Of a stretch of DNA of 64,000 nucleotides, positions 36,218 to 63,177 are shown piece after piece. A program made the position numbers and the translations under genes. The stretch lies in the IMG/VR virus record IMGVR_UViG_3300044644_002048, positions 1-64,000 of that record; one strand, 5' to 3'. Every line of letters starts with the position of its first letter. Positions within the stretch are counted from its first letter, which is position 1. The notes below the pieces were generated by a model that made no database searches, had not been told where the DNA came from, and saw only the letters and a program-made list of their open reading frames with translations. The DNA is from a virus.

Positions 36218-36244
36218 ACACATACGTATCGTTTGTGTTTTTTT
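36216..36244 (+). terminator. Weak terminator-like hairpin
   Basis: AAACACA (36216-36222) pairs with TGTGTTT (36234-36240) around an 11-nt loop and a T-run follows (36238-36244). It starts at the stop of the E1 alpha gene. The stem is AT-rich, so termination would be partial. It may have come with the homing endonuclease insert. Confidence 0.35.
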
Positions 36245-36290
36245 GGCGTATATATTATTGGTATTATATCATCACCAAAAGGAGCAAATA

Positions 36291-38345: not shown

Positions 38346-39853
38346 CTAGAAAAATGATTGATCTATTATTAATTTCGCCGAATTCAAAAAAAATGTATCA
38401 GGATTTGGCTGAAAAATATAGTGCCATAGAAACAAATCCAAGATTAGGGTATCTAGCGGCATGTGTTAGAAATAAATTTGGTGTTTCAATATACGATATG
38501 GAAGCAGAACCCCCAAAGAGCGATATCGATATTATAAATAAGGTTAACGAATGTAATCCTAAAACTATAGTTTTTGTAGCAGAAGGGCAAAATGTTAATG
38601 CTAGTGCTTGTGTGATGAGTGCTGTTTGTGATACTGCCGAAATAATACGAAATTATATACCAGATATAAAAATTGGTGTTTGTGGAGGATATTGTTCTGC
38701 ACTCCCAGACAAAGTTCTTAATGACCATTCATTTATAGATTTTGTTTTTTTGAACGAAGGATTTTATTCATTAAAGAATCTTTTGGAAAATAATGGAAGT
38801 CCAGAAGGTATTCCGGGAATTTGGTACAAAAGTAATGGCAGGATCGAGATTAATAAGCCGGAGAGAGTCGTTCCTCAAGATCTTATGGCGAGGGATATAG
38901 GGCACTGTGCATACGACTTGATGCCAAGTTTAGATAAATATAGATGTCCATTATGGCATTCTGAATATTCGGATGACACAACACCATATGCTTCAATTTA
39001 TACGAGCTTTGGATGCCCATACCAGTGTCAATTTTGTGCTGCTGCTAATTCTCTTAATAGAAACAGCAATGATTTAAATAAGACTGCTGCTGATTTTAAT
39101 ATATTTAGACATTTTGATCCTGAATTTATAATAAAAGATTTTGAATACTTGGCAAGTAAAGGTGTTAGAAATATAAAGATAACAGACGAATTATTTGTGT
39201 TAAAGAAAACTCATTTTTTACCCATATGTAATTTAATAAAGGAAAGATTTGGTAACTACTTTAGAATTTGGTGTTATTCTCGTATCAATACTATTAGAAG
39301 TGAGTACTTAAAATCTCTTAAAGATGCCGGGGTATTTTCTTTAGCTTTGGGAATAGAGGCTTCAAGCCAAGTTGTTCGACAAGAAATAGACAAGGGTAGG
39401 TTTACAGACGTTGATATTAGAACAATAGTTAGGATGATAGAGGAATCAGGAATACAGTGTTGTAACAACTTTATAGTTGGATTGCAGGGGGATACTTGGG
39501 AGACTATGCAAGAAACTCTAAATTTAGCACTGGAATTACTCGGCACAAATACTAATATATACAGTGCATGTGCGTTGCCGGGTTCTCCATTATATTTGAT
39601 GGATAAGTCGGCTGGAAAGAGAGTGCCAGAAAAATATTCAGAATTTGGTTTTTTGAGTTACGACCATGTGTGTTCTTCAACAGACACACTATCTTCTGCT
39701 GATGTACTCTCTTTTAGAGATTATTTTTTTACTACAGTATTTGAAAATCCAAGATTTCACAACAAGATAAAAAATCTATATGGAGAAAATGCTGTGCAAA
39801 ATATTAAAGATATGACTAAGATTAAACTAAAAAGAAAACTTCTCGGAGATTAG
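38342..39853 (+). CDS. B12-binding-type radical SAM protein
   Basis: 503 aa. The N-terminal part (residues about 5-170) has a cobalamin-binding-like alpha/beta fold; CPYQCQFCA is the CxxxCxxC cluster motif, followed by a TIM-barrel-like pattern (GVRNIKITDELFVL, GVFSLALGIEASSQ). Such proteins often methylate unreactive carbons or rearrange sugars. In this island a C-methyl or other radical step on a deoxysugar is a reasonable guess. Confidence 0.8.
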   Translation: MTRKMIDLLLISPNSKKMYQDLAEKYSAIETNPRLGYLAACVRNKFGVSIYDMEAEPPKSDIDIINKVNECNPKTIVFVAEGQNVNASACVMSAVCDTAEIIRNYIPDIKIGVCGGYCSALPDKVLNDHSFIDFVFLNEGFYSLKNLLENNGSPEGIPGIWYKSNGRIEINKPERVVPQDLMARDIGHCAYDLMPSLDKYRCPLWHSEYSDDTTPYASIYTSFGCPYQCQFCAAANSLNRNSNDLNKTAADFNIFRHFDPEFIIKDFEYLASKGVRNIKITDELFVLKKTHFLPICNLIKERFGNYFRIWCYSRINTIRSEYLKSLKDAGVFSLALGIEASSQVVRQEIDKGRFTDVDIRTIVRMIEESGIQCCNNFIVGLQGDTWETMQETLNLALELLGTNTNIYSACALPGSPLYLMDKSAGKRVPEKYSEFGFLSYDHVCSSTDTLSSADVLSFRDYFFTTVFENPRFHNKIKNLYGENAVQNIKDMTKIKLKRKLLGD

Positions 39854-39854
39854 T

Positions 39855-40982
39855 GTGAAACGCATAGAATTTGGTGAGTTGAGAATAGGGACTCTAGCAA
39901 GAGATCATATCAAGGACTGCCTAGATCGCAACTGGATCAGCATGGGTCCAAAGGTAGAGTTGCTTGAAAAAGAGTTCGCTATGATTATGGGGACTCGGTA
40001 TGCCGTTGCTACCTCAAGCGGAACAAGTTCTATCGTAGCAATGACTCTTGCTTTACCAGAGCTTTGTAAGAGAAAGGTTGTAAGAGGTAAAAGTAATATT
40101 TTATGTCCTGCACTTGGTTTCATCGCAAATAGTTCTGCGATTGTATCTGGCAGATTAATTCCTAGACCAATAGAAATAAAGTGTGAAGATCTTAATATAG
40201 ACGAAAATTTAGTTGAAGAATCTATAGATGATAATACTGTGGCTATTTATGCTATAGGGACAATGGGCTGTCCTTCAAATATGGATAAGCTTAAAGACAT
40301 TGCCGATAGATATGATTTAATCTTATTTGAAGATGGATGTGAAAATTATGGTAGCAAGATTAATGGAGAATTTTCTCACAAAAGAGCTATAGCTGGATGT
40401 AGTTCTTTATATACTGCTCATTTAGTTGTTGCATCAGAAGGATCATTAATATATACCGATAGTGAAGTTCTTAGAGATTTGCTTAAAAGTATACGTTCAC
40501 ACGGAAGACATCCAGACTCACAATTTTTTGACCATATCAGATTTGGTAGTAATTTTAAAATGACTGACTTAGCTGCTTCTATAGGTCTTGAGGGCGTAGC
40601 CAAGTTTCACGAGAATATTGCTTTACGAAAACGGAACTGGCAGTCATTAGTCGATTTTACTGAACAGTTTAAAGACAGGGCTTGGTTTAGTAATGAGCCA
40701 GATGGGGTAGAGGTTATGCCTCATGGTTTTAGTATTACGATTAAACCAGATTCAGGATTAGATATAAATAATTTGATTAGAATTCTTGATGAAGCAAATA
40801 TTCATTGGAAGAAAAATTTTGGAGCAATATATACTCATCCAGCGATGTCAGAATTTAAGTACAAAGATTGTCCAAAGGCAGAGTGGTGCGGAAATAATGG
40901 GATACATGTTGGTGTCCACAGATATTTGGAAGAAGAAGATATTACTAGAATTTGTAAATCGATACAAGAATTTTTTAATTAA
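39855..40982 (+). CDS. DegT/DnrJ-fold PLP enzyme with His in place of Lys (3-dehydratase-like)
   Basis: 375 aa from GTG 39855. The fold matches sugar aminotransferases (TSSGTSSIVAM, FEDGCENYGS, GSNFKMTDLAASIG). At the place of the PLP Schiff-base Lys the protein reads SSLYTAHLVVASEGS, with His189. His at this position is the feature of sugar 3-dehydratases such as ColD and E1, which remove the C3 hydroxyl instead of transferring an amine. So it probably makes a 3-deoxy or 3,6-dideoxy sugar. Confidence 0.72.
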   Translation: MKRIEFGELRIGTLARDHIKDCLDRNWISMGPKVELLEKEFAMIMGTRYAVATSSGTSSIVAMTLALPELCKRKVVRGKSNILCPALGFIANSSAIVSGRLIPRPIEIKCEDLNIDENLVEESIDDNTVAIYAIGTMGCPSNMDKLKDIADRYDLILFEDGCENYGSKINGEFSHKRAIAGCSSLYTAHLVVASEGSLIYTDSEVLRDLLKSIRSHGRHPDSQFFDHIRFGSNFKMTDLAASIGLEGVAKFHENIALRKRNWQSLVDFTEQFKDRAWFSNEPDGVEVMPHGFSITIKPDSGLDINNLIRILDEANIHWKKNFGAIYTHPAMSEFKYKDCPKAEWCGNNGIHVGVHRYLEEEDITRICKSIQEFFN

Positions 40983-40991
40983 GAGTATTTG

Positions 40992-41771
40992 ATGTTACAT
41001 ATACCAAGAATTGAAAAAGATCTGACCGGATTAAAATTTGGTTATTGGACTATTTTGGGTCTTGGAGAAAGAGCTAAAAACGGTCGAATTATGTGGAATT
41101 GCGTATGTGATTGTGGCAAATTTGGTTCTGTCAGCACATCGCATTTAAACTCTGGTAGAAGTAAGCGATGTAGAAATTGTAATGGTACAGAGAAACATTC
41201 TGAAGAATATCTAAAATCTAAAATAGGAACTAAAGTAAAAAATAGAACTATAATAGGGTATGTCAGTAAAAACAAAAGTTACAAATTAATATTGTCTTGC
41301 GATTGTGGATCAGAATCTATATACTCTCCGTCTGTTATAGAGAACGGATATGTGCCAGACAAATGTAAAAGTTGTACTAGTTGGGAAGGTTCTGGAGAAA
41401 TTTCTTTAACATATTTTTCTGAAATACAAAGAAGTGCAAAAGGTAGAAATATTGTTTTTGATGTCAATATAGAGTATTTATGGGATCTTTTTCTATCTCA
41501 AAATAAAAAGTGCATATATTCTGGAGTAGAATTAAATTTCTATAGAGATAAAAATAAATCACAATCAGCCTCATTAGATAGAATAGATAGTCGTGATGGT
41601 TATATAAAATATAATGTTCAATGGGTACACAAAAGAATTAATGTTATGAAACATAATATTCCAGATAAAGAATTTAAAGATATATGCTGTATGGTTGTAA
41701 AAAATTGCAATCTTGACATAGAAGACATTCAAACGACAGAATTTACTAAAATTTCATATATTAAGGACTAA
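40992..41771 (+). CDS. HNH-type homing endonuclease
   Basis: 259 aa from ATG 40992. The N-terminal zinc module has LKFGYWTILG, WNCVCDCGKFG and CRNCNG; a second cysteine block (LSCDCGS, CKSCTSW) follows. The C-terminus SLDRIDSRDGYIKYNVQWVH is a common catalytic segment in phage free-standing endonucleases. It lies in a tight gap between the DegT-fold gene and an epimerase gene. Confidence 0.78.
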   Translation: MLHIPRIEKDLTGLKFGYWTILGLGERAKNGRIMWNCVCDCGKFGSVSTSHLNSGRSKRCRNCNGTEKHSEEYLKSKIGTKVKNRTIIGYVSKNKSYKLILSCDCGSESIYSPSVIENGYVPDKCKSCTSWEGSGEISLTYFSEIQRSAKGRNIVFDVNIEYLWDLFLSQNKKCIYSGVELNFYRDKNKSQSASLDRIDSRDGYIKYNVQWVHKRINVMKHNIPDKEFKDICCMVVKNCNLDIEDIQTTEFTKISYIKD

Positions 41772-41772
41772 C

Positions 41773-42705
41773 ATGAAAATAGTTGTAACTGGTGCTGGCG
41801 GATATATTGGATCAAATCTTACTGGTATGTTGTCTGCAATGTCATCAATCGGTTTTAAGGTGACAGCGTTTGATAACTTCTTTTACAATCAATCTGATCT
41901 TGTACAGGATTTGTATAGTAAGTGTGATTTCAACTATGAGTCGATACTAAAGTGGAGTCCTAAGTTATGCAAAGCCATAGAAGAGGCTGACGTAATTTAT
42001 CACTTAGCCGCTTTGGTTGGTGCTCCACTGTGCGATAAATATCCTGAGCTTTGTGTAGAATTAAATGAAAAGTGGTCAGAGAAACTACTTAAAAGACTCA
42101 GTAATCAGATTGTAGTTTATCCAAACACAAACTCTTCATATGGTAGCAATCCGGGAGTATGTACTGAAGAAACCCCAATTAATCCTCTCTCTCTTTATGC
42201 GAAAACTAAGCAGGCATCTGAAGATACTCTTATGAGCTACAAAAATACTACTGCGTTTAGATTGGCCACTGTCTTTGGTGGTTCAAGACGTAATAGAGTA
42301 GATCTTCTAATTAATAACCTTGTAGGAAATTCCCTTAAAGGTGAAATAGAAGTTTTTGATGGCCATTTCAGAAGAAACTACATCCATATCGCTGATGTAG
42401 TACAGGCTATGATAATGCCAACTTATAATGAAGATATGCGACAGCAAATCTATAATCTTGGCAATGACTCAATAAATTCTACTAAGTTAAAGCTTGTACA
42501 AGATATTTGTGAGATTACTGGTGGTAAGTACAAAGTCGTAGATAATAAAACAGATCCAGATAAAAGAGATTATGAAGTAAGTAGCGAAAAACTATATTCG
42601 CTTGGATTTAAACCATATTTTTCACTTAGCGACGGTGTCAAAGAAATGATATCTATTTACAAAGGTGGTTTGTCTTTAGATGACCTAAGATGTAGGAACT
42701 ACTAA
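41773..42705 (+). CDS. NAD-dependent epimerase/dehydratase
   Basis: 310 aa. VTGAGGYIGSNL, HLAALVGAPLC and LYAKTKQASED (YxxxK) mark an extended SDR sugar epimerase. NTNSSYGSNPG holds the catalytic Ser/Thr. Its start follows the HNH gene by one base and its stop overlaps the kinase start. Confidence 0.8.
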   Translation: MKIVVTGAGGYIGSNLTGMLSAMSSIGFKVTAFDNFFYNQSDLVQDLYSKCDFNYESILKWSPKLCKAIEEADVIYHLAALVGAPLCDKYPELCVELNEKWSEKLLKRLSNQIVVYPNTNSSYGSNPGVCTEETPINPLSLYAKTKQASEDTLMSYKNTTAFRLATVFGGSRRNRVDLLINNLVGNSLKGEIEVFDGHFRRNYIHIADVVQAMIMPTYNEDMRQQIYNLGNDSINSTKLKLVQDICEITGGKYKVVDNKTDPDKRDYEVSSEKLYSLGFKPYFSLSDGVKEMISIYKGGLSLDDLRCRNY

Positions 42706-43649
42706 TGATTATATGTAAAACTCCATACAGGGTATCATTATTTGGTGGCTCGACTGATTATGCGAATTACTATGAAGAGTATGGTTCTCTCCTAATTGGG
42801 TTCGCCTTAAAACAATATAATTACACGACCATTAGATATACACCTAAGTTGCTTAGTTATAAAACCAAGGTGTCTTATTCTCAGACTGAATATGTCGACG
42901 ATAATAGGAATATAAAGAATAATGCAGCTAGGGGAGTCCTTGAATTCTTGGGAATTTCAGATGCGGTAGAAATTACCCACATGTCTGATCTCCCAGCACA
43001 AACAGGCATAGGATCTTCTTCTTCTTTTATTGTGGGATTATTGAATGCAGCATATTCCCTGATGGGCGAGCCCACGAATAAAGAAAAAATAGCTAAGGAA
43101 GCCGTATACATAGAGAGAGTACTACTAGATGAGCCCGGTGGGTGTCAGGATAGTATATGGGCGAGTTATGGTGGTCTTAATTCTATACACATAGATAAAA
43201 CTGGGGAATTTGATGTAAGACCCTTACCGTTATCACAAGAATTTACCCAGAAATTAATGGATAGATCTATTATGGTCTATACTGGTAATTCTAGACAATC
43301 TTTTGATTTGGCTAGATCACACAAACCAGATAAAAAAGAAATTCACAGATTGGCCAAATATGCATTACTTTCTTTTTATGAGTGTGATTTAAATAGTGTG
43401 GCTAGACTACTAGGAGAGACTTGGGAAGCGAAGAAAGCCATATCAGATCAAATTACCACCCCAGAAGTTGACGCAATATATAATGATTTAAAATCTATGG
43501 GGATGATTGGTGGTAAATTACTTGGGGCTGGTGGTTCTGGTTTTATCTTTGGTATTCTGTCTGAAGATTTCGATAGAATGATTTACACTAAGTATGGTAA
43601 CCTTATGGTTCCTGTTGGTATTGACTATAAAGGGTCTAATATCTTATGA
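42705..43649 (+). CDS. GHMP-family sugar kinase (heptose-7-phosphate kinase-like)
   Basis: 314 aa. ICKTPYRVSLFGGSTDYANYY is close to the opening of HddA-type D-glycero-D-manno-heptose kinases; SDLPAQTGIGSSSSFIVG is the phosphate-binding GHMP loop; KLLGAGGSGFIFG is motif 3. It phosphorylates C1 of a sugar phosphate. The next genes encode a small HAD phosphatase and an HxGH nucleotidyltransferase, which completes a kinase-phosphatase-nucleotidyltransferase series. Confidence 0.78.
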   Translation: MIICKTPYRVSLFGGSTDYANYYEEYGSLLIGFALKQYNYTTIRYTPKLLSYKTKVSYSQTEYVDDNRNIKNNAARGVLEFLGISDAVEITHMSDLPAQTGIGSSSSFIVGLLNAAYSLMGEPTNKEKIAKEAVYIERVLLDEPGGCQDSIWASYGGLNSIHIDKTGEFDVRPLPLSQEFTQKLMDRSIMVYTGNSRQSFDLARSHKPDKKEIHRLAKYALLSFYECDLNSVARLLGETWEAKKAISDQITTPEVDAIYNDLKSMGMIGGKLLGAGGSGFIFGILSEDFDRMIYTKYGNLMVPVGIDYKGSNIL

Positions 43650-44011
43650 GCGATAAAAGATACACGGTATTTGTAGATTTTGATGGTACATGTTGTTATC
43701 ACTGGGAAACCCTAACAGAGATAATGAAGCATGGTGGAGAAGTTCTGGATGGGGTTTTTGAGAAGTTTCAGGAGTGGCGGTCTAAAGACTATTACGTTGT
43801 TTTAACGACGGCACGTCCAGAATCTCTCAGAGCCTTCACAACGCAACAGATCGTTGATATGGGCCTTCACTTCGACCAGCTTGTTATGGGCCTTCCTACT
43901 GGTCCCAGAGTGGTTATAAACGACGAGAAGCCCAATGGGATGGTTACGGCGTTCGCAAAATGTGTTAGAAGGAATAAAGGTCTCAGACATGTAGATATTG
44001 AAGGTCTATGA
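43646..44011 (+). CDS. Small HAD-family phosphatase
   Basis: 121 aa. FVDFDGTCC (motif I), LTTARPESL (motif II) and INDEKPNGM (motif IV). No cap domain. It could remove the C7 phosphate in an NDP-heptose pathway (GmhB-like role), judged only from context. Confidence 0.72.
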   Translation: MSDKRYTVFVDFDGTCCYHWETLTEIMKHGGEVLDGVFEKFQEWRSKDYYVVLTTARPESLRAFTTQQIVDMGLHFDQLVMGLPTGPRVVINDEKPNGMVTAFAKCVRRNKGLRHVDIEGL

Positions 44012-44154
44012 GGGATGATGAGGACTCAATATTAGAACGGATATTCATGTTTGTATTTTGGTTGTTCTTAGTATTTCTTTTATTTGTTGTATTTTTGCAC
44101 TTTATTTATGATTGTGGTATAACTGCATATGAAGAAAGAAGGCGTAATAATTAA
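44008..44154 (+). CDS. Small membrane protein (48 aa)
   Basis: A short frame from ATG 44008 to TAA 44152-44154, overlapping the phosphatase stop (ATGA). Residues about 13-33 (FMFVFWLFLVFLLFVVFLHF) are one long hydrophobic segment, followed by a basic tail. It may anchor a pathway enzyme at the membrane. Confidence 0.55.
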   Translation: MRDDEDSILERIFMFVFWLFLVFLLFVVFLHFIYDCGITAYEERRRNN

Positions 44155-44601
44155 ATGTTTATTGGTGTAGCAAGCGGATTCTTTAACCCACTTCACGCAG
44201 GTCACGTAGATTACCTAGAATACGCAGCTTCTAGATGTGATATGCTGATTGTCATCGTAAACAACGACTTACAGGTGAGCCTGAAAGGCTCAGTTCCATT
44301 CCTTGATCAGAATGAGCGAATGAAAATCGTTGCTGCATTACATGCGGTGAATGAGGTAGTTCTTTCTATTGACACTGATTCTAGCGTATCTAAAACTTTA
44401 AGGATGATAGCTGAGGACAAATGTTTACCCATGAGATTCTTTAACTCGGGCGACAGATCGCCCGATAATCAGTCCTCTAAAGAAGATGAAGTTTGTAGAG
44501 AATTAGGTATTGAGCAGGTTTTTCTTGATCTACCTAAAGTAAATTCTTCGTCTAGTATTAAAACAAAAATAGCCCAGTCTTTCGACAGGGCTACTTTATA
44601 A
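44155..44601 (+). CDS. HxGH nucleotidyltransferase (cytidylyltransferase-like)
   Basis: 148 aa. ASGFFNPLHAGHVDYLEYA carries the HxGH motif, and NSSSSIKTKIAQ is the C-terminal loop of the family (ISSTxIR-like). Relatives include the C-terminal domain of HldE, which makes ADP-heptose. Last gene of the plus-strand island; its 3' end also encodes, on the other strand, a strong terminator. Confidence 0.78.
   Translation: MFIGVASGFFNPLHAGHVDYLEYAASRCDMLIVIVNNDLQVSLKGSVPFLDQNERMKIVAALHAVNEVVLSIDTDSSVSKTLRMIAEDKCLPMRFFNSGDRSPDNQSSKEDEVCRELGIEQVFLDLPKVNSSSSIKTKIAQSFDRATL
44559..44593 (-). terminator. Rho-independent terminator embedded in a convergent gene
   Basis: On the minus strand TAGCCC and GGGCTA (44588-44593 and 44570-44575) form a stem with an inner GTC-GAAA-GAC hairpin and a T-rich tail (TTTTTGTTTT). 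It ends leftward transcripts just after the tRNA-like gene. On the plus strand the same stem is followed by CTTTAT and may also slow rightward transcription. Confidence 0.8.
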
Positions 44602-45443: not shown

Positions 45444-45664
45444 TATTTATTAATCTCCATATGGAATTTAAACCCACCACCCTCTAGCTCTGTATTTTTG
45501 GTAGCTTCTTTCCATACAGGATCTATTTTTTCTATGATACTATCTTCTGTTGTAGCATAAATCTTTGCTCCAGAGAGCCTCACAGATAGATACATAAAGA
45601 AAAATACCCAACCGACTAAGACTGGAATCAAACTTACGCGGTTGAAAAACTCTATTTTTGTCAT
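45443..45664 (-). CDS. Small membrane protein
   Basis: 73 aa. One transmembrane segment (LIPVLVGWVF followed by FFMYL), then a charged domain. The start overlaps the kinase stop by one base. Confidence 0.5.
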   Translation of the reverse strand: MTKIEFFNRVSLIPVLVGWVFFFMYLSVRLSGAKIYATTEDSIIEKIDPVWKEATKNTELEGGGFKFHMEINK

Positions 45665-46542
45665 TAGAATTCCTCGTCATTCTGGTTACAATCGAACACA
45701 TGTAGTCCAATACTTACCCACATTCTTTTAACTGACTTTCTGTCGTCATATACAGATACGACGTGGTACAAATCACGAACAATATTAAACATTTCGTATT
45801 TGACCTGCGTATCCTGACGCATATCATTCTTAGAACGCATTAGCAAAAGATCATATCCAATATTGTTATTTTCAAGCCACTGCATCGTTTCCTCATGGCA
45901 TACAGAGTCTCGACCGCTAAAGATTAAGATATTATATCCACGCTCCATATAGGTACGCAAAGCTTCAACGACTGGATAATTTGGGCTATCTAGGCCGACC
46001 TTTTTCCAATCGTATGGACTTCGATCACCCATTATAGCTAAAGTGCCATCGATATCAAATATAACAGCCTTTGGCCTACTAACGTCTGGGACGTACTTTA
46101 TCATATCGATTTTGTCGTAGAAGTCATCAAAATCCTTCCTGACTTTATCGTAATTATTGTGCATGTTTTTAATTACGCTGTCTGGAACCTTCATTTCTCT
46201 TAGAGAGTTTCTCTCCATAGCTTCTTTAAGACTAATGTCAAAAAACTGTAGAGAAACGTCATCAAGGTATTGGCAAAAACTAATAAGCTTTCGCAAATAC
46301 TTTGGGTTACAGTTAGTCTGATCTACGATTACGTCGTATCCCTCCGATACAGCCTGTCTTATGGAAGACTCAACCAGCTGGGATACGAGTTCTTCTCCCT
46401 TACCCTGCATCATCTGGGATGACTGCAACATCTGTCTGAAATCATCTCGACAGATTCTAACTATGCCTTGGTCTCGCTTAGACTCAGCTTTTGACCATGT
46501 GCTTTTTCCACTAGCTGGAATACCTACTGTTAAAGTAATCAC
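45664..46542 (-). CDS. Polynucleotide 5'-kinase / 3'-phosphatase (T4 Pnk-like)
   Basis: 292 aa in two domains. Residues about 1-150 are the kinase (P-loop VGIPASGKSTW, then CRDDFRQML). Residues about 155-292 are a HAD phosphatase (VIFDIDGTLAIMG, ILIFSGRDS, YDDRKSVKRMW). It heals RNA or DNA ends, and in T4 it repairs host-cleaved tRNA, which fits the tRNA genes in this genome. No RNA ligase is seen in the window. Confidence 0.88.
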   Translation of the reverse strand: MITLTVGIPASGKSTWSKAESKRDQGIVRICRDDFRQMLQSSQMMQGKGEELVSQLVESSIRQAVSEGYDVIVDQTNCNPKYLRKLISFCQYLDDVSLQFFDISLKEAMERNSLREMKVPDSVIKNMHNNYDKVRKDFDDFYDKIDMIKYVPDVSRPKAVIFDIDGTLAIMGDRSPYDWKKVGLDSPNYPVVEALRTYMERGYNILIFSGRDSVCHEETMQWLENNNIGYDLLLMRSKNDMRQDTQVKYEMFNIVRDLYHVVSVYDDRKSVKRMWVSIGLHVFDCNQNDEEF

Positions 46543-46564: not shown

Positions 46565-46750
46565 TTAATTTAATTCCCCAGATTTTCTTTGTATTTCTTT
46601 TGGTACGTGCTCTTTACATAAATTACACGCATGTTTTATTGGACCACCCATTTTTACCCAAACCCAGTCCTTTGGTAATCCACTATTAACTGTGGCGTTA
46701 CATCCACAATAATCACAACGAAATACTTCGACTGATCCTAGATAAGTCAT
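46565..46750 (-). CDS. Small zinc-ribbon protein
   Basis: 61 aa. CDYCGC near residue 12 and CNLCKEH near residue 42 form a zinc ribbon. It overlaps the stop of the polymerase gene by 4 bp, which may reflect a functional link with the polymerase. Confidence 0.6.
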   Translation of the reverse strand: MTYLGSVEVFRCDYCGCNATVNSGLPKDWVWVKMGGPIKHACNLCKEHVPKEIQRKSGELN

Positions 46751-49700
46751 AGTTCTACTGCTCTATTAATAACCAAGGAACCCTTTTGACTCTTTTCCCC
46801 GAATATACCAACAAAAGCCCCCGGATACAAGAACCTTCCGAACATTTCGTACTCTTTTTTGAAAATCACAGCATCTAATTCCCCAGTGTCATCCTCAATC
46901 GTCAGAAAAGCCATTTTACTATCATCTTTGAGGACGTGTTCTTTTATTTCCTTAACTTTGATATTCAGGGACATCTTACCAGATCTTCCGTTCTTAAAAT
47001 CTTGGCATGTGGCATCAGCTGTTCCTGCTGCGAGGCAGGAGTCCATATACCCACAAGATAATGGAATACCTATAAGATCGTCTTCAATGCTCGCTATGCG
47101 AGCCGGAGTGTCTTCTAGGGATCTTCCGGGATTTATCAGAACTTCATAGATCGCCTGCAATTTAGGAAGTCTAGCCGCAGTAGAAGCTGCTCCACCTTCC
47201 TTCTTCAGCCTAGCTGACTCTAAGACAGCAGTTTCGAAGCTGTCAAATTTATTCTTCTTGAAGAATTCTACTTCTTTTGCTGTGAACATGTTGCTACAGG
47301 TGTAGTAGTGTAAGAGCTTCGCTCTAGAAATTCCTAAATAGCCGAATGCTCCACAATTTATGAGTGATTCACATGTTCTTTTGTTAATGTGTTGAAGCAC
47401 ATCAAATAAAAGAGAGGGAATACTTAGTATTACTCCGTACTCAGTCAGTAGTTGGAATAGCTTATCAAGCTCTTTTGAGCTTACTCCCTTAATATGGGTC
47501 AGGCCAAAATGAACCCTGCCTTCCCTAATGAAGAATTCTGGAGTCAAGAATTTTACAGATGGCGGCTCTATTTCATAATTATCTGCTCTTGCAGAAAGTA
47601 CAAGATTACGAACTTCTGCGTGTGGATCTAATTTGTGATCTGATGTGTTTAACCATTCTCTATAGAATTCTAAGGGCTTAGTTTTTTTTGTATAAGCTGA
47701 CCAATAGGATAAATAGGAATAAGAAATAGAATGCGATTTATTAAACAAATATCTGCTAGATTTTTTAATCGTATCAAATAGTGTCTTTGCTTCTGACTCA
47801 TTAATCACATTAACTTTTTTACATCCATCAAGGAATTGTTGCTCTAAAGAAAATAGTAACTTAGCGTTTTTCTTACCGACACTATTATGAACTAAAATAC
47901 CATTTATAAATCCACAATGATTTGAGTCTTCAGTTTCATAATCAAAAGTTTCTATTTTTCCAACACTAATAATATCTTTTACCTGAACATAATAAAAGTC
48001 TGAGTCTAAAACCTCCTGCATAAAAGGAGAACAGACTAATTTATTAAGATATCTTGCCTTGTCTACGGTCAGACTGTTGTTATAACATTGGCCAGCATTA
48101 ATAAAGTGCCCAATTATAGAATTTAGTTTTTCTGATCCAAAACAAGACTGAACTATCTCTTCTGGAATCCTAAATTTATTGGTAGACATTTCATCATTAT
48201 AATCTTGCTCTATAATAGATAGGATTTTATTTTTTTTGTTTTCACAAATAAATTCCGTATACAAATTATAGAATTTACTAACATCTCTTTTGGTAAGTAT
48301 GTTAAGATTGTAGTAGTATTTTTCGTAATTTTTATCATACTTTTGAGATATAGAAGAATATATTCCGTCGCATAATAAAATAGATTGTACTTGTCTCAAT
48401 AGAATTAATGACGCTGATGTTAATTGAACATTATTTTTACTAATAGTTCCATCACCATCAAACATACAAGATATTATTGTTCTAAGATGATTTTGAGGAA
48501 GAGTTATGAATCTTTGTGGGATAAATTTTTCTGCTGATTTATTTTTTTGAAAATTATCAACGATGAACTTTCTTGCCTTAGATAAAAGTCTTATATCCAT
48601 AACACCATTTTCGAAATTGGTTTTCCCGACTGAATCATCGCCAAATTCTGATTTGATGCTTTTTTCCAATAAATCTATTACGTTTTGATCCTTATTAGTA
48701 ATTTTAGGATACGGCGTAAGTTCTGTATAACATCCTTCTGTAATAAAATAACCGATGATAATAGATTTTTCTTTCGAATGGATATATCCACGATCATAAT
48801 TATAGTTTTTGGGTATAACTATATAATGGCTCTCATCAATTTCAGATAATTTTAACCATCCCCTACTTGTTAAGATTTGATGATTTTGGGTTACATCTAT
48901 ACTGAACCCATTGGCAGATCTTATTCTGAAAACTTCTTGTTCTCCTGTCGACCAGACTCGCTTAATTTTGGCGAAATAAGACTTCCCATTATTCACCGAG
49001 AGAATTTCTTCTCCAGAAGAAACAGCATCTATTCTTTTCGGCCCTTTTCTAGTGTAGACCAATGAGTCACAAGAAATGCACTTCATCATCTTAATAGAAC
49101 TGGCACTATTAAATCCGGCCAACTCTTTACAGATCTTCAATAGGGTTTCTTGATAAATAAGAACGCCATATGTGTCAATTACCTTATTGATATTGTTGTC
49201 TGGTATTTCCTCTAGACCGTTTTTCCTTTCACAATAAACTTTGGTCATACTACGACCAGATTCATCCTTACTAGAAAGTGTTCCCGGTCTTAAAATGGCT
49301 GTCAGTGCTCCAAGCTGCTCTATATTTTCTGGACCTAATTCTTTGGCCCAATGCATTCCAAGCTTACCTTCAAGCTGGAAGAATCCCTTAGTGTTGCCAG
49401 ACTGAATAAGTTCCCACGTATCTTCATCATCTAATGGTGCTGATAGAATCTCGGCCCCCATAACTGCGGAAATCTTATTTAGAATATCCACCCCAAGAAA
49501 GTCGAACTTAACAAGTCCTACTTTTTCTAAGTCCTGCATATCTAATGCGGCAACTGAGCTTCCATCCTTAGCTGGAGCCATAGGACTTATATCTGAGATC
49601 TTCTCGGATGAAATTATAACGCCAGCTGCGTGTTTCCCTATGGTTTGAAAAGTCCCTTCAAGTTTTAGGGCTTTCTTAAAAGCATCAGCATATTCCCCAA

Positions 49701-50250
49701 GGATTTCGTCATTTTCCCCGAGATAAGCGTAGTCATTGATTTCTTTTACATGCTCTAAACACCACAATAAAATAGAAGGGGTATCCATTTCTTCTAGTTG
49801 GTCTGAGATAGCTGCTTCGTCTGGAATATGTTCTGTTATTAAATTTTGTGTATAAGAGTCACATAACTCGGCTGTACGTAGCACAGCTTTAAGTGCTGAT
49901 CGTCCAGATAGTCGCCCAAAGGTTACAATTTGGCAAACCTTATCCGAACCGTACTTGTTTCGGACATAGTCGATGGCTACTTCTCGGTAATCTGTGGGGA
50001 AGTCCGTATCAATATCTGGTAGTGCTGTTGCACTTTTTGTGAATGAGCATGGTTTAGTTAGGTCGATGCTATCAACCATTCCCAACAAATACATATAGTA
50101 TGAGTTTTTGGGATTAGAACGGTCGAGAACAACATTTTGTACTACGTAGTTATAATAATCTACTCCGTCTGGTATAGCTTTTAGAACTTCAAGTTCTTCC
50201 TGATAAAATGGCGATGCGAGGGCTTTTTGTTCTATTTCTTCTCTTGTCAT
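46747..50250 (-). CDS. DNA polymerase III alpha, C-terminal part (DnaE-like), with intein
   Basis: 1167 aa from ATG 50250 (ATGA overlap with the previous stop). Residues about 78-84 read PDIDTDF (two catalytic Asp), followed by the fingers and KFDFLG (third Asp), then QLEGKLGMHW, the helix-hairpin-helix and a C-terminal OB-like region (SLNIKVKEIKEHV). Residues 391-789 are an intein, leaving 768 aa. The PHP and GRGSA region is missing here and is encoded separately at 52799-53755. It copies the phage genome together with that partner. Confidence 0.85.
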   Translation of the reverse strand: MTREEIEQKALASPFYQEELEVLKAIPDGVDYYNYVVQNVVLDRSNPKNSYYMYLLGMVDSIDLTKPCSFTKSATALPDIDTDFPTDYREVAIDYVRNKYGSDKVCQIVTFGRLSGRSALKAVLRTAELCDSYTQNLITEHIPDEAAISDQLEEMDTPSILLWCLEHVKEINDYAYLGENDEILGEYADAFKKALKLEGTFQTIGKHAAGVIISSEKISDISPMAPAKDGSSVAALDMQDLEKVGLVKFDFLGVDILNKISAVMGAEILSAPLDDEDTWELIQSGNTKGFFQLEGKLGMHWAKELGPENIEQLGALTAILRPGTLSSKDESGRSMTKVYCERKNGLEEIPDNNINKVIDTYGVLIYQETLLKICKELAGFNSASSIKMMKCISCDSLVYTRKGPKRIDAVSSGEEILSVNNGKSYFAKIKRVWSTGEQEVFRIRSANGFSIDVTQNHQILTSRGWLKLSEIDESHYIVIPKNYNYDRGYIHSKEKSIIIGYFITEGCYTELTPYPKITNKDQNVIDLLEKSIKSEFGDDSVGKTNFENGVMDIRLLSKARKFIVDNFQKNKSAEKFIPQRFITLPQNHLRTIISCMFDGDGTISKNNVQLTSASLILLRQVQSILLCDGIYSSISQKYDKNYEKYYYNLNILTKRDVSKFYNLYTEFICENKKNKILSIIEQDYNDEMSTNKFRIPEEIVQSCFGSEKLNSIIGHFINAGQCYNNSLTVDKARYLNKLVCSPFMQEVLDSDFYYVQVKDIISVGKIETFDYETEDSNHCGFINGILVHNSVGKKNAKLLFSLEQQFLDGCKKVNVINESEAKTLFDTIKKSSRYLFNKSHSISYSYLSYWSAYTKKTKPLEFYREWLNTSDHKLDPHAEVRNLVLSARADNYEIEPPSVKFLTPEFFIREGRVHFGLTHIKGVSSKELDKLFQLLTEYGVILSIPSLLFDVLQHINKRTCESLINCGAFGYLGISRAKLLHYYTCSNMFTAKEVEFFKKNKFDSFETAVLESARLKKEGGAASTAARLPKLQAIYEVLINPGRSLEDTPARIASIEDDLIGIPLSCGYMDSCLAAGTADATCQDFKNGRSGKMSLNIKVKEIKEHVLKDDSKMAFLTIEDDTGELDAVIFKKEYEMFGRFLYPGAFVGIFGEKSQKGSLVINRAVEL
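47884..49080 (-). mobile_element. Intein with LAGLIDADG endonuclease in DnaE
   Basis: 399 aa. It starts with Cys (CISCDSLVYTRKGPKRID) and ends GILVHN before Ser, the standard class 1 pattern. LAGLIDADG-like motifs IIIGYFITEGCY and IISCMFDGDGTIS mark a homing endonuclease. The site is KMMK|SVGKK, in the conserved GKK motif that inteins often target in DnaE. Splicing would restore an uninterrupted polymerase. Confidence 0.9.
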
Positions 50251-50444
50251 TGTTTTACTCTGCCAAAGGTTATATTGTTCACAACTACTATATCTTTTGG
50301 GCGATATTCCCATATTTCGCCCGTAGATTTAACTATACAGGTGAATATCTTTTCTGTCTCATATCCATATTCTGTTACTAGCCATATTGTAGCACGACCT
50401 TTCGGCGTGTCAACCTCTACGCAGTTCTGTGGCTCAAGTATCAT
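50247..50444 (-). CDS. Hypothetical small protein
   Basis: 65 aa, beta-rich, containing IWLVTEYGYETEK and EIWEYRPKDIVV. The start overlaps the upstream stop by 11 bp and the stop overlaps the polymerase start by 4 bp. Confidence 0.5.
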   Translation of the reverse strand: MILEPQNCVEVDTPKGRATIWLVTEYGYETEKIFTCIVKSTGEIWEYRPKDIVVVNNITFGRVKQ

Positions 50445-52790: not shown

Positions 52791-52809
52791 TGGCCATCTT
52801 AGATGGCCA
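52791..52809. repeat. Perfect inverted repeat centred on a stop codon
   Basis: TGGCCATC and GATGGCCA flank the stop codon of the polymerase N-terminal gene (TAA on the minus strand at 52799-52801). No T-run follows. It could be a protein-binding site, an RNA hairpin limiting translation of the YopX gene, or a scar of the event that split the polymerase gene. Confidence 0.55.
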
Positions 52810-53755
52810 CATCTCGCCACACGTCCACGAAGGGGCACTCATCAAAGCTTAAATGCTTAGGATAAGATCTGGCTGCGTTAAAGAACCGACTAAATAGGAG
52901 TCCGTAGGGTAAGGGATCGATTAGTGTGATACCAGTAAGGTAAGATACTAAACAGCCCGAAGCCGACCCTCTTCCTGCCCCGACCAATACACCTTTTTGT
53001 CTAGCTTCGTTGCAGAAGTCCTGAACAATAAGAAAATAACCAGCCAAATTATTTAGCTCAATTACCTTCATCTCTTTGTTGAGTCGATCCCTATATCTAG
53101 GGATCTCGTCAACCGGGATCATTTTACTAAAGCCAATTTCAACAAGGTCTCGTAGTAATTCAATCTCAGGCTTGTCTCCAGCGAAACCGGGCAGCTTAGG
53201 ACTCGTAAAAAAGGAATAGGGCTCTATAAGACCAAGGAATTCAGACATTCTCGGGGCGACTATTTCAGACGGAAACTCATAGCCCTTAGTATTTTCTACT
53301 AATTTGGTTATGGTTGTCTTGTTTGCCATAGCCCTAAGAATTCTGTATGATTCTTCATCAGACACATCAATATATCTGCAATCTCTAAGACCTAAATCAG
53401 TCTCAGAGAAGCGAATTTTGAACTTTTCTTCATCGGAAACGAAGATAAGGTTTTCTGACTGGAATACAGAAGGCTCAATCGGCATAGAATGGGCGATGTT
53501 GTTAACTAAACTAATTAACTCATACCATCCAGTTAGATTTCTAGCGAAGACTTTGTACTGTAAGTCACAACCAATTATGGGAATAATCCCATGATTTTGG
53601 CAACATTCCACGAAATCTACTGCTGCTGATAGTGTACCGAAATCACATAGGCCGACATGAGTATGTCCAAGTTTTTTTGCAGCCAACACCAAATCTATTG
53701 GCTTATTAAAAGCTTGTAGTACTGAATAATGAGTACGATTAAGTAATTGGGCCAT
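52799..53755 (-). CDS. DNA polymerase III alpha, N-terminal part (PHP + GRGSA region)
   Basis: 318 aa from ATG 53755 (AAGGA upstream). Residues about 1-200 are a PHP-like domain; its HxH motif is degenerate (NRTHYSVLQ), so the phosphoesterase is probably inactive. Then GYFLIVQDFCNEARQKGVLV and GAGRGSASGCLVSYLTG match DnaE up to RFFNAARS, the exact point before PDIDxDF. The last 20 residues are unrelated to DnaE. The catalytic Asp residues are in the other gene (46747-50250). Confidence 0.85.
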   Translation of the reverse strand: MAQLLNRTHYSVLQAFNKPIDLVLAAKKLGHTHVGLCDFGTLSAAVDFVECCQNHGIIPIIGCDLQYKVFARNLTGWYELISLVNNIAHSMPIEPSVFQSENLIFVSDEEKFKIRFSETDLGLRDCRYIDVSDEESYRILRAMANKTTITKLVENTKGYEFPSEIVAPRMSEFLGLIEPYSFFTSPKLPGFAGDKPEIELLRDLVEIGFSKMIPVDEIPRYRDRLNKEMKVIELNNLAGYFLIVQDFCNEARQKGVLVGAGRGSASGCLVSYLTGITLIDPLPYGLLFSRFFNAARSYPKHLSFDECPFVDVWRDVAI

Positions 53756-53756
53756 T

Positions 53757-53894
53757 TTATTTCCTTGATGTTGGTACAACCGTAGTTATAAGACCTACGA
53801 ATAGAAAAAATCCCCAACCACCTTTGTCTTGTGAAGCCAAATAAGCTGCTGATACTATTGACGTGATTGATACGAGATTATACAGAAGAACCAT
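53757..53894 (-). CDS. Small membrane protein (45 aa)
   Basis: A short frame from ATG 53894 to TAA 53757-53759, overlapping the previous gene's 3' end by 17 bp. Hydrophobic segments (YNLVSITSIVSAAYLA and GFFLFVGLITTVV) flank a short polar turn. It sits just before the polymerase gene. Confidence 0.45.
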   Translation of the reverse strand: MVLLYNLVSITSIVSAAYLASQDKGGWGFFLFVGLITTVVPTSRK

Positions 53895-57043: not shown

Positions 57044-57264
57044 ATTAACTTTTTCCTTTTAAGGAGCGTTCTTATATTCTTATATTCCTTGTATACACAA
57101 ACAAAAAAGGGCTCAGACCATAAGTCAGAACCCTTATCTTTATGCATTTCTTCGTAATATTTTTCCCAATCACGAAGTTTTCTAATTGCTGCTTGTACTA
57201 CATATTGGCTTGGGTCTTTGAATGAAAGTTCGTATTCGAGTTCTGATATGAAGTCTCTAGCCAC
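57040..57264 (-). CDS. Hypothetical helical protein
   Basis: 74 aa, helical, charged, with YEEMHKDKGSDLW in the middle and a basic C-terminus. It overlaps the VWA gene end by 67 bp in another frame. Confidence 0.5.
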   Translation of the reverse strand: MARDFISELEYELSFKDPSQYVVQAAIRKLRDWEKYYEEMHKDKGSDLWSEPFFVCVYKEYKNIRTLLKRKKLI

Positions 57265-57734
57265 TTTTTAAATTCCTCAATTGTAAAACAGAAGAAACCT
57301 TCTATATTTACCATCTTATCCAGATATACCATTATACATGTTTTACCATATGGTTTTGGTACTTCTGAAAATTCTCCGTCTGTTATGACTATAAGTAGAT
57401 CTGGTTTCATCTCGTAGTGGGAAACATGGTCTACCGCTTGTTTCGGGTAGATTCCACCTCCACCAAGACATCTTATACCACGACGAAGGGATTGATCAAG
57501 GGCTAATCCATAATAATCGGGAACTTTTTCGGTGATATCTGTTTTGGTGTAGTCATCACCACCAGACGCATAAATAGTCAGACTTTCACATCGTTCCTTT
57601 AGTTCAACAACCAAACTTATAGCAGAGTCAAGCATAGATTCTATAAATAGCATAGAACATGATGAATCTACTATAAGTAAGGTTTCCCCACCAATTTTTG
57701 GTAAAGAAGCGAGATGTTGAATATCGTACATCAT
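57198..57734 (-). CDS. VWA-domain protein A (TROVE/Ro-like type)
   Basis: 178 aa. TLLIVDSSCSMLFIESML is the MIDAS motif (DxSxS); LGGGGIYPKQAVDHV and LLIVITDGEFSEVP give the remaining metal ligands (T and D). The arrangement resembles the VWA half of Ro/TROVE proteins, although no TROVE ring is visible. Adjacent to a second VWA gene with a 4-bp overlap. Confidence 0.78.
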   Translation of the reverse strand: MMYDIQHLASLPKIGGETLLIVDSSCSMLFIESMLDSAISLVVELKERCESLTIYASGGDDYTKTDITEKVPDYYGLALDQSLRRGIRCLGGGGIYPKQAVDHVSHYEMKPDLLIVITDGEFSEVPKPYGKTCIMVYLDKMVNIEGFFCFTIEEFKKWLETSYQNSNTNFHSKTQANM

Positions 57735-58342
57735 CCGAAAATTCCCATAGTTTGTTTTTCTGATGTGTCGTAGCTGTTCACTACGATCTCATTACGACTT
57801 GATTGACCTCTCATACGTGTAACTTTAGAGATTGTTGCATCGTACATACCAGTGGTTTTTACTTTCTGGTCCACAGCATAAGCATCAGCAACAGTCTGCA
57901 TGTCTGTTGCTAAACCAATATCTGTACACAGAAATGTAGTTTCAAATCCAGAGTTCCTGATAGCATTAATAGCTTCAGTCTTCGTCGTAGAACCCTGATT
58001 ATTTAAACCATCTGTAACAACAACAAAAATAACAAGGGGCTTTTTCTTCTTGTTCTTCTTGATCTTGTTTACATATGTGGTGGTTTCATTGACAGCCTGT
58101 ACAATGGTATTATAAAGGCGGGTCATCCCTCTTGGAACAAGTGTGTAAGACTTATCCTTAATAGGTGTATTTCTATACACAACATTAATATCACTATCAA
58201 ACTCATAAAGGGAAAGTGTACAATCTCCTAAGTTTGCGTCTGATTGAGATGCTAGAAATCGATTAATACCGTTTTCGGCTTCTCGCTTGATTGAATCCAT
58301 ACTTCCTGAACGATCAATTACCATACAAATGTGAGTGTTCAT
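57731..58342 (-). CDS. VWA-domain protein B
   Basis: 203 aa. HICMVIDRSGSMDSIKREA (MIDAS DxSxS), VPRGMTRLYNTIVQA (T) and FVVVTDGLNNQGS (D). It has a good GGGG ribosome site. VWA proteins usually assemble with ATPases or nucleic-acid-binding partners; the partner here could be the large unknown protein at 61031. Confidence 0.82.
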   Translation of the reverse strand: MNTHICMVIDRSGSMDSIKREAENGINRFLASQSDANLGDCTLSLYEFDSDINVVYRNTPIKDKSYTLVPRGMTRLYNTIVQAVNETTTYVNKIKKNKKKKPLVIFVVVTDGLNNQGSTTKTEAINAIRNSGFETTFLCTDIGLATDMQTVADAYAVDQKVKTTGMYDATISKVTRMRGQSSRNEIVVNSYDTSEKQTMGIFG

Positions 58343-60648: not shown

Positions 60649-61030
60649 AATTACCTCATAAAAGAAAAAGTATACATGGATGAACATAGTACTACTTTCT
60701 CTTTATGGTGGTCTGCATTCAGAACATGGCTCTGCTCCTAATCAAATAGTTTTTAATAATACATACGCAATCTCGCGATTGCGAGTGGAACTTTCCGGGA
60801 TCGAACCGGAGTCTTAACAACATCAATAATAGAGATGTACATGCTTCTCGGCTATGCCGAGGGTTTTAGCTTATATTACAGAACGTTCTGGATTTTGTTA
60901 ATAAGGCATCCAGAGACCCCATCAGCTACGCTGCAACAGCAAAAGATTTTGCGTTTATTTTTTTTAGCCATTATTTTGGAGTTGGCTAACTCCGCATGTA
61001 TCTATTACATCAAATTATTAATCAAGTCCA
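60649..61030. other. Non-coding region with hairpins and a tRNA T-arm remnant
   Basis: About 380 bp without a credible gene. It holds a perfect T-arm with the 3' acceptor half of a tRNA on the minus strand (60786-60810: TCCGG TTCGATC CCGGA then AAGTTCC A), but no matching 5' half. Three perfect hairpins occur at 60766-60783 (CGCAATC), 60847-60861 (CTCGGC) and 60978-60993 (GGAGTT), plus a 12-bp palindrome at 60879-60890. The region looks like a decayed tRNA locus. Confidence 0.5.
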
Positions 61031-62770
61031 TTAAGTCCCAAAAAGGTTTATGAAAGTACTTTTATCAATCTTATTAACCGAAAGATCTAGTCCCCTATCT
61101 GGACTATCTACAATATTTGCACCAAGATGCTTAACTAAAGTCTTGAAATTTAATGGTGTTTCATACTGTTCGTACAGTGCCTGTAGACCATTAGAATTTC
61201 TTGATACTTTAGCCTGTCCACTGCCACAATTAATTAGGACAAATGACTGTCCTTTTTCTTCTGGTAGAACAATACCAAAAATCATCTGATTTTGTACAGA
61301 GCAGGTTTTGATTTCAGCCATAACCTTATTAGGGTCCATCATATAAGGCTTAGAGATTTCATCACCAGATCCAACAACAATCTTATATCCAGTAGTGTCA
61401 GAGCCACGGAAGATATTAATATTGACTATTTTTGGACCGAATACATTCTGGAAATGCAGATATTCAACAGCCCCATTCGGTGCATATGTTATATCTCCAC
61501 TATAGATTACATCTTTTGTAGAGTATCTAGAGTTCCATCCAATCTTATGGTTATTGATATCAGTACATGACAAGTCAATATCACGAGCACCCCAACTATT
61601 TTCCCAATATACTCCAATAGCTAATTTTTCACCATGGAATTTTGTTCCGGCAGGAATATTGCCGACAAACATCTTTTCAGACGTAGGTACAGCATATTCA
61701 ACGCCTTCTGGAATGAAAATGTTCACACCAGACATATCCCATCGTTTTTTAGCATAATCCATGAGCATACTAAAATTCGAAGCAAGTAAATCAAGATTTG
61801 CAGAAGTATTTTCACCAACCCATGATTTTCCATTACGAATTCTATAACAGAAAGAGGTCTGACCCTGCATTCTACTATGGATAGCTGCCAATGCCTTAAA
61901 GAAGGCAAATGGTGTAGCATTATCTAACCAGTGCAAATCCTTTTCGGACAGTCTTTTGTTAGTAACCTGATTCAGTGGATTAGATACTAAAGGCTTATGA
62001 TTCACCTTAGAATATCTAGCAATGACATTAATAGTATGCGGACACTTTTTCTTGAATGCTAAAAATAGTGGCTTAAATCTATTGAAGATTTTGCCTAAGT
62101 TATCCACTCCATGCTTCTGGAATATAGAAGATGGGTCAAATTCACTAGACTTAATAGCCTGAATAGATGCCGCATTCTTAATAAGAAGAGATTTGCCCGT
62201 AGCCTTGTAGATACAATACCGGAATAGTTCGGTTGTATCGGCTGGCATTATCCCGTGCAGATCGGCAATCTTAATTATTGCTTCTCTGTTCTTAATGTTT
62301 TCTTTACCAGTGAACTTATATCCGACTTCATCCAGTACGGATAGAATGTCATCTATAGTTTCTTCTTTAAGGGCTACGCCACCAAGCATCGTCAGACACT
62401 TAGAGATGATTTCTTCTTTTGTCAATCCCCGAACTACTCTGAATGAGAGCTTTGCTTCAGGAATTTCCAAAATTTCGTCTGGAATATAGATTTCGCCTTC
62501 AAAATTTGTCCCGTATGTGGAACAGTAATGGCGAATCTGATCGGCAAGAAGTTCTGCCCGAGAAGAAGACTGAACTTTCTGAAAGCTCTTGTGGAAAGAT
62601 TTGTTTAGATCATTACCACTTAACTTTTGGTCTCTATAGTATTTTACTATGTGACTGTGTGCCCAGTCTGCTGAACTATCTATTACGAGACCAAATTCAA
62701 GGTCAACCGTATTAGATTTTGATTTTGGTGCTTTTGCGACAACAGCATTGAACAAAGAAAGAGTCTTCAT
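61031..62770 (-). CDS. Large conserved protein of unknown function
   Basis: 579 aa from ATG 62770 with an AGGAC site. The start MKTLSLFNAVVAKAPKS, HYCSTYGTNFEGEIYIPDE, FRVVRGLTKEEIISKCL and the central IYWENSWGARDIDLS are features of a family found in large phages and bacteria, with no assigned function that I know. The C-terminal third is beta-rich. It is the only gene controlled by the structured leader at 62771-62959, and may cooperate with the two VWA proteins nearby. Confidence 0.65.
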   Translation of the reverse strand: MKTLSLFNAVVAKAPKSKSNTVDLEFGLVIDSSADWAHSHIVKYYRDQKLSGNDLNKSFHKSFQKVQSSSRAELLADQIRHYCSTYGTNFEGEIYIPDEILEIPEAKLSFRVVRGLTKEEIISKCLTMLGGVALKEETIDDILSVLDEVGYKFTGKENIKNREAIIKIADLHGIMPADTTELFRYCIYKATGKSLLIKNAASIQAIKSSEFDPSSIFQKHGVDNLGKIFNRFKPLFLAFKKKCPHTINVIARYSKVNHKPLVSNPLNQVTNKRLSEKDLHWLDNATPFAFFKALAAIHSRMQGQTSFCYRIRNGKSWVGENTSANLDLLASNFSMLMDYAKKRWDMSGVNIFIPEGVEYAVPTSEKMFVGNIPAGTKFHGEKLAIGVYWENSWGARDIDLSCTDINNHKIGWNSRYSTKDVIYSGDITYAPNGAVEYLHFQNVFGPKIVNINIFRGSDTTGYKIVVGSGDEISKPYMMDPNKVMAEIKTCSVQNQMIFGIVLPEEKGQSFVLINCGSGQAKVSRNSNGLQALYEQYETPLNFKTLVKHLGANIVDSPDRGLDLSVNKIDKSTFINLFGT

Positions 62771-62959
62771 TTTAAGTCCTAAAAAACGGGGAGTAATTAA
62801 GTTGAATCCCCGAAGGGATGAATAGGAACTCCGTATGTTTTACAACAAGAGCGAAAGGTAATTTACATTAAAAGTGTTTATAGGAACCTTTTGTGCTCAT
62901 TTTCTTCATAGCGAGAGGTAATTTACCAAAAAATTATAGGAACCTCTTGTGCTTATGTA
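62771..62959 (-). promoter_or_regulatory. Repetitive structured 5' leader with terminator/antiterminator
   Basis: Three copies of a motif (62910-62953, 62850-62897, 62790-62833) share GTTCCTAT...AATTAC between pairing arms that covary: AGAGG/CCTCT, AAAGG/CCTTT and GGAG/CTCC. The third copy is special: CGGGGA (62807-62812) and TCCCCG (62787-62792) form a stem followed by six T (62781-62786), a terminator just before the ribosome site. Alternatively AUCCC-UUCG-GGGAU (62806-62819) forms and blocks it. The arrangement is riboswitch-like. Confidence 0.6.
62781..62812 (-). terminator. Conditional terminator in the leader
   Basis: The 6-bp stem CGGGGA/TCCCCG (62807-62812 and 62787-62792), 14-nt loop, runs into TTTTTT immediately upstream of the AGGAC ribosome site of the 579-aa gene. 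Both arms overlap bases used by the alternative hairpins, so it can only form when they do not. Confidence 0.6.
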
Positions 62960-63097
62960 TTATAGTAGGCTTTCAATAAATTTCTTGGCCATGCATCTTT
63001 TCTTCTTAGCCTTAAACTTCATCCACCTACATTCAGCACATTTTTTCTTTTTATGGCTGATGTATCTATCTCCACACCATTTACAAAGCTTTTTCAT
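62960..63097 (-). CDS. Small zinc-finger protein (45 aa)
   Basis: A short frame from ATG 63097 to TAA 62960-62962. It encodes a CKWCG and a CAEC knuckle in a strongly basic chain (about 13 Lys), fitting a small nucleic-acid-binding zinc protein. It lies between a tRNA gene and the structured leader. Confidence 0.6.
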   Translation of the reverse strand: MKKLCKWCGDRYISHKKKKCAECRWMKFKAKKKRCMAKKFIESLL

Positions 63098-63100
63098 AAA

Positions 63101-63174
63101 TGCGATAGACAAGACTTGAACTTGCAACCTTTTGTTTGGAAAACAAACACTCTAGCCAATTGAGTTACTATCGC
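63101..63174 (-). tRNA. tRNA-Gly(UCC)
   Basis: Perfect acceptor GCGATAG/CTATCGC, D-arm ACTC/GAGT with AATTGGCTA loop, anticodon stem TTTGT/ACAAA with loop TTTCCAA (anticodon UCC), variable loop AGGTT and T-arm GCAAG TTCAAGT CTTGT. 74 nt including the discriminator A. No 3' CCA is encoded. Confidence 0.9.
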
Positions 63175-63177
63175 AGA

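Follow-up and report, generated by a model that had tools for sequence, protein, structure and literature searches.

A family of small structured RNAs with tRNA-like tips, and a helical-TerD protein as its proposed partner, in phages and Bacteroidota

Introduction

What are the three repeats that precede the gene for a 579-aa protein in IMG/VR virus record IMGVR_UViG_3300044644_002048? The stretch of DNA that we analyzed (the window) comprises positions 1-64,000 of this 69.7 kb record, and the repeats lie in tandem on its minus strand (Table 1). The original prediction took them for an unnamed structured RNA in a ligand- or protein-sensing leader, with tandem promoters as a caveat. We find that the repeats are almost certainly copies of an unnamed small structured RNA family much larger than these three, and that this RNA is very probably the partner of the protein family to which the 579-aa protein belongs.

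Results

The motif GTTCCTAT...AATTAC has three exact copies on the minus strand of the window (62918-62943, 62858-62887 and 62793-62829). Chance would supply a mean of 0.04 copies and three were reached in 0 of 100 shuffles, so the predicted repeats are real. A covariance model of the family, R1, finds exactly these three copies in the window (46-55 bits, E ≤ 1e-11); they are part of its training set, and R1 also matches copies outside that set, such as five in the gut phage Phass-1. An Rfam 15 search of the window returned no family for the repeats.

Members of the family consist of a helix P1 (4-5 bp), an ANA/C internal loop, a helix P2 (5 bp), the sequence UUCCU, a variable tip and a closing UA. 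Copy 1 has P1 UAAGC/GCUAU, with the inner 3 bp paired, an ACA/C internal loop, P2 AGAGG/CCUCU, and UUCCU...UUA around a short tip. Copy 2 combines P1 GAGC/GCUC and the same internal loop with P2 AAAGG/CCUUU. The flanking AGCACA and CGCT of these two copies had been suggested to extend the stem, and they do: the outer helix is formed by AGC with GCU, and ACA/C makes the internal loop. Copy 3 has P1 AAAAC/GUUUU, an AUA/C internal loop, P2 (C)GGAG/CUCC(C) and a tip with a UUCG-capped helix, AUCCC/GGGAU.

Among 206 distinct copies collected by sequence anchors only, with pairing not a criterion, each of the ten pairs forms more often than in all 500 shuffles. In a set of 56 diverse copies, 94.3% of cells are paired compared with 69.7% after shuffling, both helices covary strongly, and at nine of the ten pairs both sides have changed; sliding the structure lowers pairing to 39-56%. 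The structured RNA with covarying stems that had been proposed from three copies is thus borne out by strong covariation.

A pattern scan of viral contigs led to a locus (L004) at which three tandem copies precede a homologous gene; two of the first three loci found by DNA pattern (L005 and L006) have no tandem copies beside them and appear to be chance matches. A scan for close relatives from the window protein alone gave no match, and an alignment with phage homologues then succeeded. By tblastn, the protein is present in the cyanophages S-CRM01 and S-CBWM1, where its gene sits inside large tRNA arrays, and in Phass-1. Alignment A1 gave 44 viral loci and 121 genome matches, of which 80 were retained, mostly from Chryseobacterium and other Bacteroidota. 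Across phages and Bacteroidota, one to five RNA copies lie at most 700 nt upstream of the gene in 110 of 116 homologue loci; a reverse-strand control over most of the same regions gave one copy.

RNA and protein also occur together when genomes are compared as wholes. Among 120 genomes of one family, 11 carry the full-length protein and the RNA, one carries the RNA only (a weak match), none carries the full protein only and 108 carry neither (Fisher p 1e-14, with related genomes counted as independent). Starting from RNA patterns alone, we found 97 viral loci; R1 matches 70 of them, and the protein is present in 20, all within the 70; the RNA by itself thus led us to further homologues. Of 13 whole records with R1 matches, seven (165-424 kb) encode the protein, and the remaining six (20-291 kb) are possibly fragments. 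Two whole records without R1 matches also lack the protein.

The position of the copies is not fixed. In Phass-1 they are downstream of the protein gene, at a distance of more than 1 kb (L009:9033-9497), in S-CRM01 one copy follows the gene (L007:7826), and in S-CBWM1 one copy lies among tRNAs 2.5 kb upstream. Jumbo phage copies are scattered over more than 100 kb, and many are separated from a tRNA gene by 2-11 nt. Because copies are also found downstream of the gene and adjoining tRNA genes, they are not merely leaders.

We propose the 579-aa protein as the RNA-binding partner of the repeats. Its AlphaFold2 (AF2) model (predicted local distance difference test score, pLDDT, 86.8) comprises a helical N-domain and a C-domain whose fold is that of TerD, not vWA (Foldseek match to TerD 2kxt, E 1.8e-5, probability 1.00). 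Pfam gave no match for the protein, and Foldseek of the N-domain against the PDB gave nothing below E 0.001. Homology to TROVE proteins was considered and rejected: profile comparison by hhalign showed no relation (probability 0.6%), the N-domain had no Foldseek support, and a profile search of 40 family members did not detect PF05731 (TROVE). Distant full-length relatives in BFVD come from Campylobacter and Lactobacillus phages. In bacteria the loci are RNA-repair islands, with RNA ligase and nucleotidyltransferase genes nearby: RtcB is encoded at 70 loci, directly upstream where inspected, and RlaP at 51, all of them bacterial.

The variable tips often mimic a part of tRNA: an anticodon stem-loop, a D-arm with an anticodon arm, or a T-arm with a closed acceptor. 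We compared tips, after removal of near-identical ones, with controls that preserve base composition and not ancestry. The best hairpin has a 7-nt loop in 52 of 232 short tips (19.8 expected, maximum 31), and 66 of the 232 have a 7-nt loop with U33 and purine 37 (18.9 expected, maximum 36). Among viral tips with stems of at least 5 pairs, such loops number 14 compared with 2.2 expected; 8- and 9-nt loops show no excess. The loops match those of Lys(UUU), Asn(GUU), Gln(UUG), Cys(GCA), Phe(GAA) and other tRNAs, and where the cognate tRNA is found at the same locus the loop is often identical and the stem different. Some longer tips add a D-arm. Tips with GGTTCAAATCC were also considered as anticodon loops; they are actually T-arms, and none is among the 66. 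The tRNA mimicry, seen here as sequence statistics, is probably functional. In the window the stem is clear and the mimicry appears weak: the tip of copy 2 could fold as ACA-CUUUUAA-UGU, with an anticodon loop like that of Lys(UUU), and none of the three copies has a T-arm, closed acceptor and D-arm module. Separately, a tip in one jumbo phage record (L287, record G124), ACGGA-CUUUAAA-UCCGU, resembles an anticodon loop with UUA, which would decode the stop codon UAA.

A further form, present at 62 loci and seen in Chryseobacterium, is a tRNA body with an open acceptor in which the same stem replaces the anticodon arm. These counts come from a tRNA-anchored set; a first structural scan had given many chance matches on the reverse strand. 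In 32 distinct examples the acceptor pairs form in 97-100% of cases and include several pair types. The two examples submitted to cmscan were called tRNA (L054, 49.2 bits; L012, 51.4 bits), and a match to the tRNA covariance model is limited to these open-acceptor forms. The closed-acceptor and open-acceptor forms are therefore two circular permutations of one architecture.

We compared the new RNA with known systems. Close in plan is YrlA (RF02553), which occurs with the TROVE protein Ro60/Rsr in rsr-yrlBA-rtcBA operons: both RNAs join a stem to a tRNA-like module of T-arm, closed acceptor and D-arm, although only some of the new copies have these in the YrlA order (L046, L035, L024), and both share an RtcB neighborhood and a partner protein gene adjoining the RNA. 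They differ in that P1-ANA/C-P2-UUCCU takes the place of the YrlA stem sequence in the new RNA, whose tip is in many copies a single anticodon loop and which has the open-acceptor permuted form in addition; the neighboring protein, too, is helical-TerD rather than TROVE. The best copies score 36.2 bits with the YrlA model, whose gathering score is 69. The new RNA is thus Y-RNA-like in plan, but by model score and partner it is not a Y RNA. Some genomes that carry the RNA and protein have a TROVE gene elsewhere; at the one TROVE locus searched (L134/L135), R1 found no match.

Scaffold proteins of the SPFH/Band-7 family are reportedly combined with a tRNA-like RNA, RNA ligases and nucleotidyltransferases in RNA-repair systems that Burroughs and Aravind described in 2016. 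The plan of scaffold protein and tRNA-like RNA is the same, and the protein family is different. The MXAN_6230/SCO0854 RING family of TerD-domain proteins (NF041916) has the C-terminal TerD fold in common with the new protein. Its profile weakly matches 11 of 40 members of the new family, in those inspected within the TerD region only and far below its 600-bit cut-off, and the helical N-domain of the new protein has no solved relative. Literature searches, with incomplete coverage of work on Y RNAs and RNA repair, returned no description of this RNA or protein.

Flavo-1 (RF01705) is likewise a small RNA family of flavobacteria; it gave no match at the scanned loci of the new RNA and occurs at TROVE loci instead. 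At five of six Chryseobacterium-family loci scanned, it lies just past the 3' end of the TROVE/Ro60 gene (Table 1). Flavo-1 might serve flavobacterial Ro60 as its Y RNA, or be merely a conserved element of one orthologous locus. A possible Y RNA lies at another locus (L151:409-477), where the YrlA model gives a sub-threshold match (34.9 bits, E 2.2e-4) on the strand of a TROVE gene and downstream of it.

Discussion

We favor a reading, which we regard as evenly poised, in which the small noncoding RNAs and the helical-TerD protein form a ribonucleoprotein (RNP) that belongs to RNA-repair islands and phage tRNA arrays, is Y-RNA-like but distinct, and acts as decoy or bait. The RNAs would be transcribed and processed, and their constant stem (P1, ANA/C internal loop, P2, UUCCU...UA) would be the handle bound by the neighboring protein. 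The variable tip would then show a piece of tRNA, whether an anticodon stem-loop, a D-arm with anticodon arm, a T-arm with capped acceptor or a permuted whole tRNA body. Working like a Ro60-Y RNA particle in RNA-repair settings, the particle would present these look-alikes to tRNA-cleaving toxins or defense nucleases, as decoy or damage bait, so that phage or host tRNAs would be spared or end-healing and ligation enzymes recruited.

PrrC cleaves tRNA-Lys, and Pnkp and a ligase repair it; the decoy or bait reading fits this known cleavage and repair. The window phage encodes a Pnkp-like protein, a candidate RNA end-healing enzyme by its profile matches, as well as an R2K ATP-grasp protein. Decoy or bait action against tRNA nucleases is the mode that we prefer; it is unproved, and we hold it tentatively. 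With similar reserve, we suggest a new class of RNP in phages and bacterial RNA-repair islands, with one protein-binding stem and interchangeable tRNA pieces (many anticodon identities, D, T and acceptor modules, and circular permutants) directed against tRNA-cleaving immunity or toxins. If this is true, it adds another pair of scaffold and noncoding RNA to RNA-repair systems, beside Ro60-Y RNA; it explains a conserved hypothetical gene of the tRNA arrays of S-CRM01, S-CBWM1 and Phass-1; and it gives the question of how tRNA-rich phages might withstand anticodon nucleases an answer that can be tested.

Several observations weigh against this reading. We found no RNA ligase in the phage record, and neither RtcB nor RlaP in the viral flanks searched. 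In copy 2 the tip stem is limited to 3 bp and differs from the predicted minimum free energy pairing, copies 1 and 3 have no clear tRNA part, and most of the 232 short tips are not clear anticodon loops. The position of copies upstream of the gene fits a role in cis as well.

The same RNP might instead act as a tether or gate, with no decoy role, the tRNA-like tip docking nucleases, ligases and modification enzymes onto the protein. The plan shared with YrlA, the sub-threshold YrlA matches over the tRNA-like part and the RtcB neighborhood favor this, as does the tethering of Rsr to PNPase by Y RNA in Deinococcus (PMC7790460). The many single anticodon-loop tips with varied anticodons count against it, for one docking partner would seem to need less diversity, and we consider it rather unlikely. 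Improbable as the whole explanation is a leader acting in cis, in which the protein represses its own mRNA by binding the stems there, tandem copies grading the control. Copies stand just upstream of nearly all homologues, and in 75 of 110 loci the last copy has a U-run (T5 or more) after it, a count uncontrolled for AT content; against this, some copies lie downstream of the protein gene or within tRNA arrays, those of jumbo phages are dispersed, and the tips are tRNA-like. Such control may be an additional role of the copies.

The jumbo phage copies close to tRNA genes could be read as processing or spacing hairpins that guide cleavage of polycistronic tRNA transcripts. In bacteria the copies adjoin RtcB and the protein gene with no tRNA array needed, and the tips are left unexplained; we think this less probable still. 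The ligand-sensing riboswitch of the original prediction, with a terminator and antiterminator in copy 3, is very improbable. Its loops are conserved and an alternative GC stem followed by U is possible in copy 3, but we doubt that the T-run is a terminator tail because it is the 3' strand of the outer helix P1; a terminator scan, which accepts loops of 3-8 nt only and so does not cover the wider alternative stem that was proposed, found no site, the expression platform was not confirmed, and copies lie outside leaders. Tandem promoters, suggested by TATAAT in copy 1 and TATAAA in copy 2, are ruled out as the main explanation because compensatory changes keep the stems paired while the bases change, and a scan of the minus strand found no sigma-70-like site at the copies. 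A Bacteroidota-type promoter, TTTG...TATATTTGC, is readable upstream of all three copies at L004.

Other features of the virus record

Table 1. Positions of the RNA copies and associated features (window positions, except for Flavo-1)
Feature	Position	Strand	Description
RNA copy 1	62908..62955	-	R1 50.6 bits, E 4.6e-13
RNA copy 2	62848..62899	-	R1 54.8 bits, E 2.1e-14
CUUUUAA loop of copy 2 tip	62868..62874	-	Anticodon-loop mimic; identical to loop of the phage's own tRNA-Lys
RNA copy 3	62783..62841	-	R1 46.4 bits, E 1e-11
579-aa protein gene	61031..62770	-	Helical N-domain, TerD-fold C-domain; AF2 pLDDT 86.8, Foldseek
tmRNA	60785..61039	-	Directly downstream of 579-aa protein gene; context
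tRNA-Gly(UCC)	63100..63175	-	Upstream of copies; last gene of phage tRNA array
Polynucleotide kinase/phosphatase-like protein	45664..46542	-	PF25109 HAD_PNKP 6.1e-41, AAA_33 2e-18; context
Flavo-1 RNA at TROVE loci	L134:688-776, L145:698-779, L146:2435-2512, L150:2401-2488, L152:726-813		RF01705, function unknown

Past the window, record positions 64600-65808 hold six further tRNAs: Tyr, Lys(UUU), Pro, Asn, Thr and Met. A small basic open reading frame (ORF) at 62961-63098, between tRNA-Gly and copy 1, shows CxxC pairs by eye (MKKLCKWCGDRYISHKKKKCAEC...) and possibly encodes a zinc ribbon. Two vWA-like proteins are encoded side by side at 57198-58342, one with a weak match (E 0.075) to the PHROG RNA-binding family phrog_850. 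Judged from translations, a DnaE-like polymerase is apparently divided between two ORFs that are separated by about 2.5 kb (46747-50313 and 52799-53779), the larger of which seems to contain an intein-like insert, and the ORF at 198-2180 is a RecB/Cas4-like nuclease with an apparent intein. A long plus-strand run of glycosyltransferase, sugar-epimerase and kinase-like genes occupies 27831-44601, the rest of the record being mostly minus strand.
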